NCBI GenBank assembly: GCA_944325635.1
Contig: CALVBD010000002.1
Coordinates: 124,001 to 188,000, forward strand
Reading direction: 5' to 3'
Source: Candidatus Gastranaerophilales bacterium
GTDB taxonomy: Bacteria > Cyanobacteriota > Vampirovibrionia > Gastranaerophilales > Gastranaerophilaceae
DNA: 64,000 bases
Notes under the pieces: generated by a model
Told to the model about the DNA's origin: nothing
Database searches by the model: none
What the model saw: the letters and a program-made list of their open reading frames with translations, nothing else
In this document: in pieces, positions 2,030 through 22,477 of the stretch
Layout of the letters: each line of letters opens with the position of its first letter
Numbering within the stretch: the first letter of the stretch is position 1
Program-made: the position numbers and the translations under genes

Positions 2030-2758
2030 ATGAAAACTGTTGATATGACTGGATTTACGGGGGGGGGGGCAGCTTGAATTAAAGCTCCGGAATGGATTTA
2101 CGCTTGCAGAAACTCTTATTACCATTGGTATTATTGGGATAGTTGCTTCAATGACTTTGCCTGCAATAACGGCTAAAACCGAAAAACAACAAACGATTGC
2201 AAAGCTTCAAAAAGTATATAGCGTTCTTTCTCAGGGAATAAAACGTTCGGAAGTTGATAACGGAGAAATTTCCGAATGGCCTACAGGCTCTTCTATTACT
2301 GATGTAAACGCTTATTATAATAAATACTGGCGGCCTTATTATAAAAACCCAAAAATTTGTCAAACAGCTGTTTCTTGTGGGTATTCAAATAATAATGCGT
2401 GGGTAAATTTGAATGGTCAAAGGACTGGATGGTATGTTTCAACAAAGGAAAGCAGGGTTTTATTTATGCTTTCTGATGGTACATTGATTTTTAATCCGAG
2501 AAATACTACAGATTTGCAGGGGGAGCCGGCTTATGTTAATTATTTTTATGTTGACATAAACGGTCCAAAAATCCGAATGTATTAGGTAAGGATGTATTTA
2601 TTTTTACTATTTCAGACAAGAAACTTTTAAGACCTTACGGATATAACAAAGCATATAAAGATCTGAACTGCAGCAGGCAAAGTTCAGGGAATATGAATGA
2701 CTGTACGGCAAAGATAATAGCAGACGGCTGGAGGATAAAAGATGATTATCCGTGGTAA
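2030..2758 (+). pseudogene. Pseudopilin gene, out of frame at an 11-G tract and again at an A5 run
   Basis: As written, translation from ATG 2030 gives MKTVDMTGFTGGGAA and stops at 2075. Removing one G from the tract 2059-2069 joins this leader to QLELKLRNGFTLAETLITI, a type IV prepilin/pseudopilin N-terminus with Gly before Phe+1 and Glu+5. The frame then continues to an early TAG at 2583. Adding one A to the run at 2567-2571 restores the family C-terminus (GKDVFIFTISDKK and a DCTAKIIADGW block) to TAA 2758. With both corrections the gene is 243 codons. Such proteins insert in the inner membrane and build pilus or secretion fibres after prepilin peptidase cleavage. It could be a phase-variable gene now off, a decayed copy, or partly a sequencing error. 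Confidence 0.8.
2059..2069 (+). repeat. Homopolymer of 11 G in the pseudopilin leader
   Basis: Eleven consecutive G directly after GGATTTAC. The following frame needs 10 (or 7 or 13) G. An identical 11-G tract in the same codon context lies at 21705-21715. Confidence 0.97.
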
Positions 2759-21675: not shown

Positions 21676-22477
21676 ATGAAAGCTATTGATATGACTGGAT
21701 TTACGGGGGGGGGGGCACCTTAATTTAAAGCTAAAGTGTGCGTTTACTCTTGCAGAAGTATTAATTACTTTAGGTATTATAGGCATTGTGGCAGCTATGA
21801 CTTTACCGGCCTTGATACAGAAACAACATGAAAAAGTTACTGTAAATAAAGTAAAAACTGCTTATTCATTATTAAATCAGGCCTATACTTTGGCAAAAGC
21901 CAAAAACGGTGATATTAACTACTGGTTTCAAGAAAATTCAACATTTGAAACTGATGAAGATGGTTCTGTATCACAAAATGATTCTGGTCGAAAAAATCAA
22001 GATATTTTTTGGGATAAATTAGTCCCATATTTAAAGATTACATCAAGGTGCAAAGCAAGCGAAAACACATGTAAAAAGCCTGCCAATTTATATACACTTA
22101 CAGGCAATATCCGAAATATTGATATAAAATCCTATTCAATTATTAATCTTGTCAATGGAATGTCGGTATTTGGGGGCTGAATTGGTAACATAAATTGTAA
22201 AAACAAAGATTCTTGTGGAGATTTTGCAGTTGATATTAATGGAATTGAAAATCCACCAAATGCTACAGGAAAAGATGTTTTCTATTTTTCAATACTGCAA
22301 AGTTCTATTTCATCTTATTTTGAGGGGCAGGATATGGAAACCTATTGTAGTATTAAAAATACTTCAGAGAATAAAAATAACGGTTATGCCTGTACTAGAT
22401 GGATTCTTTTAAATGAGAATATGGACTATCTTCACTGTGATGATTTAAGTTGGGACGGCAACTCAAAATGTAAATAA
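21676..22477 (+). pseudogene. Pseudopilin gene, out of frame at an 11-G tract, with an in-frame TGA
   Basis: From ATG 21676 the written frame gives MKAIDMTGFTGGGAP and stops at TAA 21721. Removing one G from 21705-21715 joins it to HLNLKLKCAFTLAEVLITL, a prepilin N-terminus with Ala rather than Gly before Phe+1. The frame then runs to TGA at 22178-22180 (after NGMSVFGG) and continues open in the same frame to TAA 22475, with the usual pilin blocks DFAVDINGIENPPNATGKDV and a Cys-rich end (YACTRWILLNENMDYLHC). Corrected length is 267 codons. TGA is an ordinary stop in neighbouring genes, so recoding is unlikely. It may be phase-variable and off, or decaying. Confidence 0.8.
21705..21715 (+). 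repeat. Homopolymer of 11 G in the second pseudopilin leader
   Basis: Eleven G in the context GATATGACTGGATTTAC-G-run-CA, identical to the tract at 2059-2069 in a diverged gene. The downstream frame requires one G fewer. Confidence 0.97.

Follow-up and report, generated by a model that had tools for sequence, protein, structure and literature searches.

A pilin gene that is separated from its leader by a run of G residues, and lies out of frame with it, raises the question of whether the run acts as a switch, is overcome by recoding or marks a decaying gene. Such a gene is found in the window analysed here, a stretch of 64,000 nucleotides from a Gastranaerophilales bacterium; all features are on the forward strand. 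The pilin cassette lies downstream of a hupB-type HU gene (1457-1729, a 90-aa ORF), which marks the orthologous site in relatives. It begins with a candidate sigma-70-like promoter, TTGAAA-17-TATAAT (1982-2010), assigned by consensus match only (11 of 12 positions), followed by the Shine-Dalgarno sequence GGAGG (2020-2024), located 5 nt 5′ of an ATG at 2030 with a spacing similar to that in paralogous leaders. In the 11-G (OFF) phase the leader ORF (2030-2077) reads MKTVDMTGFTGGGAA and ends after 15 codons with a TGA at 2075-2077. The G11 tract, the proposed slippage switch, occupies 2059-2069, and the same element recurs at about 40 places in the genome. With 10, 7 or 13 G the leader is joined to the prepilin frame (2070-2585). 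The first-pass annotation had claimed exactly this arrangement, i.e. a tract of 11 G, the frame arithmetic that follows from it, an intact promoter and ribosome site and a normal prepilin helix in the next frame, and these claims were borne out, the one on the promoter within the limits of a consensus match. Runs of at least 9 G gave six overlapping matches in the window versus 0.11 expected.

Translation of the 10-G version of the gene yields MKTVDMTGFTGGGQLELKLRNGFTLAETLITIGIIG..., a product of 184 aa, and this reading enters FTLAETLITIGIIG, the prepilin motif. In profile searches positions 2088-2159 matched TIGR02532 with 26.1 bits and the window prepilin matched PF07963 with an E-value of 4.5e-5, both above cut-off, confirming a type IV prepilin-like N-terminus (G/A-F-T-L-x-E plus hydrophobic helix). 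Further downstream the gene carries a second lesion, as it has one base fewer at 2565-2571 than its orthologues (L202-L205). The pilin frame therefore ends at 2585, with GPKIRMY-stop versus GPKNPNxxGKDVF in the four related proteins compared, and the remaining pilin C-terminus lies in the shifted frame (2586-2758, ..IIADGWRIKDDYPW, compared with the orthologue C-termini). Because of this second frame break, correction of the tract alone does not restore the full pilin. The frameshift is either real decay or an assembly error, and the window pilin gene may thus be decaying.

The feature is not unique, since the same window holds a second copy of the cassette (L003). Here the leader ORF (21676-21723) reads MKAIDMTGFTGGGAP-stop, its tract (21705-21715) has the same 11 G as the first copy, and the prepilin that follows (21716-22477) is in frame at 10 G, its translation containing an in-frame TGA at 22178-22180. 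Searching the whole genome, which is of Candidatus Scatousia type (Gastranaerophilales; 2.0 Mb in 13 contigs, 99.75% complete), and reading the stretches around the tracts, we collected 50 tracts of at least 9 G versus about 0.4 expected; runs of at least 8 G numbered 56, and a similarity search returned 45 places resembling the window leader or pilin start. About 40 of these sequences are copies of one cassette, in which a Shine-Dalgarno sequence and an ATG precede a leader (for example MKTIDMTGFT), the leader runs into G11 and a stop comes after two to three codons; each copy is then followed, out of frame, by a different prepilin. As a profile search detected 83 prepilin motifs in this genome, roughly half of them carry the tract.

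Tracts also occur in non-pilin genes, some of capsule/LPS type, namely genes matching RgpF and the Stealth capsule protein, genes with GT-D-like domains (a weak match) and a gene for an adhesin-like repeat protein. In one leader copy (L049:1501-1569, on contig C3 of G000) the tract is interrupted by a T (GGGGTGGGGGG), possibly representing a locked switch. In a subset of the direct-fusion pilins, i.e. those in which the leader continues into the prepilin, 69 of 74 are at least 220 aa long in the ON phase, indicating that the out-of-frame genes are kept intact, and a few family members are short in every phase. The hallmark of a contingency locus, a surface gene that is intact apart from a long homopolymer near the 5′ end of its coding sequence, is thus found in the family, and is lacking in the window gene itself owing to its second lesion.

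Six genomes of the genus contain 37, 53, 34, 29, 16 and 7 runs of exactly 11 G, and such runs are mostly fewer in the rest of the family and almost absent outside it; related species have up to about 90 G-runs of the cassette kind per genome. A search of viral contigs for the leader-tract element gave no match. In another Gastranaerophilales genome (L223) a prepilin leader carries a run of C in place of G. At the window site itself, a hupB best match of at least 90% identity was obtained in 12 of 13 congeneric genomes. The pilin unit 3′ of hupB is present in G000, G003 and G012, G004 has a different leader-tract pilin cassette with 10 G at this site, and G001, G002, G006-G009 and G011 have no cassette within 1.4 kb behind hupB, so that whole cassette units seem to come and go here. 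All four copies found of the window locus, three behind hupB in G000, G003 and G012 and a related pilin in L204, have 11 G, and no variation in tract length was seen among them.

Tract length does differ between relatives elsewhere. We compared G003 and G012, whose flanks are about 90% identical, at 30 orthologous loci whose upstream DNA matches over 1 kb or more: the number of G was the same in 23 pairs, differed with the frame kept in two and differed in phase in five. The Stealth gene has 12 G and is ON in G000, and has 11 G and is OFF in G003 and G012. Three copies of the GT-D-like gene (L009, L136) have 11, 10 and 9 G within the codons of a conserved HGGGATQLLFG. Intact genes thus do undergo changes of tract length that alter the frame. 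The first-pass annotation had proposed switching by slippage of the tract, to be supported by different lengths in related genomes and refuted by a fixed length of 11 G or by absence of leader and tract from intact orthologues. Leader and tract are present in intact orthologues, as phase variation requires. As for length, differences at the same locus were found for the family and not for the window locus, where 11 G is likewise the length in all three orthologues from relatives, so that the observation named as refuting is in part made at this locus. The proposal as a whole is thus favoured by the approximately 40 cassettes, their occurrence in relatives and the differences between orthologues, whereas the constancy of the frame, the 11 G throughout at the window locus and its second frameshift speak against it.

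The constancy of the frame is most evident from phase statistics, for which cassettes were typed by script with few ambiguous cases, all tract lengths being those of the assembly consensus with one genome per species and most genomes being metagenome bins. Pooling 89 direct-fusion pilins from four congeneric genomes (G000, G003, G012 and part of G010), we found that 72 need the loss of one G, 12 need the gain of one and five are ON, a bias corresponding to p = 3e-10 against one third for observations that are partly non-independent, as paralogues share ancestry. In the majority frame an early stop lies within 9 nt of the tract in 49 of 68 paralogues, with TAG, TAA and TGA all in use, compared with 11 of 68 for the other OFF frame. 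That the stop is kept by means of different stop codons suggests that the frame is probably under selection. Measured from the ATG to the end of the tract, leader length is mainly 40 or 45 nt, and in the 45-nt class all 19 loci need the loss of one G with tracts of 9, 10, 11, 12 or 13 G. The frame is constant in spite of this range because substitutions at the tract border alter the number of G and not the frame. With this and with 23 of the 30 orthologous pairs identical, the majority frame varies far less than would be expected under free switching. That a mutational equilibrium at 11 G alone produces the OFF bias was rejected, since leaders with 9 to 13 G hold the same frame.

A second design of the cassette occurs mostly in G003 and G012. 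In these elements stops come after the leader and G11, then a hairpin (CCGTG-loop-CACGG) with a T-rich but variable tail, and finally a prepilin with its own Shine-Dalgarno sequence and ATG. Of 75 canonical elements, all stop early when read with 11 G, 53-65 nt 5′ of the hairpin, and 69 also stop early with 10 G (36 TAG, 22 TAA and 11 TGA), whereas with 12 G the reading extends to the hairpin in 73. Counting all 89 terminator-type elements, 72 need the gain of one G, six need the loss of one, four reach the hairpin as they are and seven are ambiguous. With moderate confidence the hairpin may be taken as a terminator: its stem, at about -8 kcal/mol, is weak, and it is nearly invariant, five of six pairs never varying, so that covariation provides little signal. 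The features of a Pil1-type attenuator, i.e. a leader ORF with a repeat, a terminator and an ON stop at or past the hairpin, are thus found in the second design of G003 and G012; at the window locus they are missing, as no terminator lies between the G tract and the pilin. Terminator-type leaders also contain a conserved CCTCCG (columns 98-103 of alignment A1; L114 and others), which could pair with the pilin Shine-Dalgarno sequence CGGAGG and might form a second layer of control.

One explanation of the out-of-frame genes is that they are pseudogenes or products of homopolymer errors in assembly. The second frameshift of the window gene, the nonsense codon of the second copy and the few family members without a long reading frame would fit decay or artefact, but most paralogues are intact past the tract (the 69 of 74 mentioned above), the stops are maintained through exchange of one stop codon for another, and G003 and G012, whose records (NODE names, idba) indicate other assembly pipelines, likewise have their mode at 11 G. 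Intact paralogues contradict this explanation genome-wide, where we consider it very improbable; for the window gene alone it is possible. In G010 many contigs (e.g. C1, C4, C40, C52, C84 and C88) start within 100 bases of a G tract, as if the assembly broke there, and mixtures of lengths as well as the shared leader or other repeats could cause this. Translation of the pilins from an internal start was rejected as a general solution, 52 of 76 pilins having no in-frame ATG, GTG or TTG between tract and motif, though it may apply to some of them.

The gene products might also be obtained from an unchanged DNA sequence. If RNA polymerase stuttered on a fixed tract, a share of the transcripts of every cassette would be in frame and the DNA would not be a switch. 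Such transcriptional slippage would agree with a frame offset that is constant across loci, leaders, species and tracts of 9 to 13 G, with the presence of MutS1 and with both designs, as -1 and +1 products would both be available. It requires, however, that dozens of pilins be expressed steadily at a low level, for which a weaker promoter would suffice, and tracts of 9 G should slip much less, yet they keep the same design. Moreover, DNA-level phase differences exist at orthologous loci, ON alleles included, and we regard this explanation as unlikely. Programmed ribosomal frameshifting on the G run (+1, as at prfB) would yield pilin from the 11-G mRNA, and the constant offset, combined with an early stop in the 0 frame directly behind the tract, resembles known recoding sites. 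At prfB-like sites a single shift direction is conserved at a conserved site; here, opposite shifts would be needed within one genome, as direct fusions require the 10-G frame and terminator-type elements the 12-G frame. The codon before the stop varies, and terminator-type elements keep stops in two frames rather than one. Frameshifting by the ribosome therefore fits poorly, and we consider it very improbable.

We therefore favour, with a probability of roughly 0.74, a reading in which the tract would switch a phase-variable pilin cassette that is OFF by default and belongs to a genome-wide repertoire. As the sequence shows, the promoter-like site, Shine-Dalgarno sequence and short leader lead into the G tract, the leader stops a few codons past it in the majority phase, and loss of one G joins the leader to the prepilin. 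In the ON product the tract would encode Gly-Gly-Gly ahead of the prepilin cleavage motif. From prepilin peptidase biology this part is likely to be removed at cleavage, making the mature pilin independent of tract length beyond the frame. In rare cells DNA-polymerase slippage would add or remove a single G, so that out of roughly 40 to 90 such genes in a genome one or a few may be turned on at random and the majority would be silent. For some congeneric species, this leader and tract would instead act on a terminator located upstream of a pilin that has a start of its own; there, only the 12-G phase would bring ribosomes to the terminator and would presumably be the ON phase.

Default-OFF slippage would explain which classes of genes are involved, why genes out of frame are intact and stops are maintained, and why ON alleles and both designs occur. 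As a class, phase variation is well supported by these sequence patterns, with an unusually fixed default-OFF frame. Slippage alone leaves the constancy of the default frame unexplained; selection against many pilins at once combined with rare switching would explain it, and RNA-level slippage would account for it equally. More tentatively, and with clear doubt on our part, the one-base offset held across 9 to 13 G may be a selected default, such that dozens of pilins would be expressed only via tract slippage, through rare DNA variants in a population kept OFF or through RNA-level recoding, one module having been put to use in direct fusion as well as with a terminator. All 13 congeneric genomes contain MutS1 (12 above cut-off in the profile search), and slippage of short tracts may consequently be repaired. 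Judged by MutS1, missing mismatch repair as the cause of the long tracts is thus unsupported. Mismatch repair made a difference to short G tracts in Neisseria meningitidis but not to G10-G13 (PMC4085013), rendering the presence of MutS1 compatible with slippage at 11 G.

If this reading is correct, an uncultured gut lineage related to cyanobacteria has a very large phase-variable repertoire of surface fibres, mostly held off by the same cassette. Existing metagenome reads could then show how a commensal uses dozens of switches in its host, and one could ask whether selection keeps the default-OFF state. One G-tract module would have two wirings, direct fusion and attenuation, the latter having so far been described, to our knowledge, only for the GCAGA repeat in Streptococcus gallolyticus. 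A search of the open literature found no publication naming both Gastranaerophilales and phase variation.

The functional classes found here (pilins, RgpF, Stealth and adhesin-like proteins) are those of known contingency loci. In Neisseria, the opa family and pilC are surface genes whose signal-peptide region at the 5′ end contains a repeat. Like the cassettes described here, they form a dispersed surface gene family whose members each carry a 5′ repeat and switch independently, but opa comprises about 11 genes with CTCTT repeats, in contrast to about 40 pilins sharing an N-terminal leader and a G tract. The opa family is summarised in PMC3745409. Campylobacter jejuni NCTC11168 has 29 polyG/polyC tracts (PMC4965091); for tract lengths affected by PCR slippage, this paper warns that values may come out 20-35-fold too high. 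As here, its poly-G contingency loci have tracts of about 8-12 G in coding regions for surface structures, with frame switching by one base, and glycosyltransferase-type genes are tract-bearing in both. Unlike in C. jejuni, a single promoter-Shine-Dalgarno-leader-tract-stop cassette is shared by dozens of pilins in a fixed default-OFF frame, and mutS1 is present. The second design of G003 and G012 resembles the attenuator of S. gallolyticus Pil1/Pil3, in which a repeat-bearing leader ORF and a terminator precede the pilus genes. In Pil1 a stop 39 nt before the hairpin gives low expression and a stop in or past it high expression (PMC3894217), and the second design matches this layout, with the OFF stop tens of nucleotides before the hairpin and the ON stop within or past it. 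S. gallolyticus, however, uses GCAGA pentamers at two loci for Gram-positive pili, whereas here a G tract precedes prepilins at 35 to 54 loci per genome.
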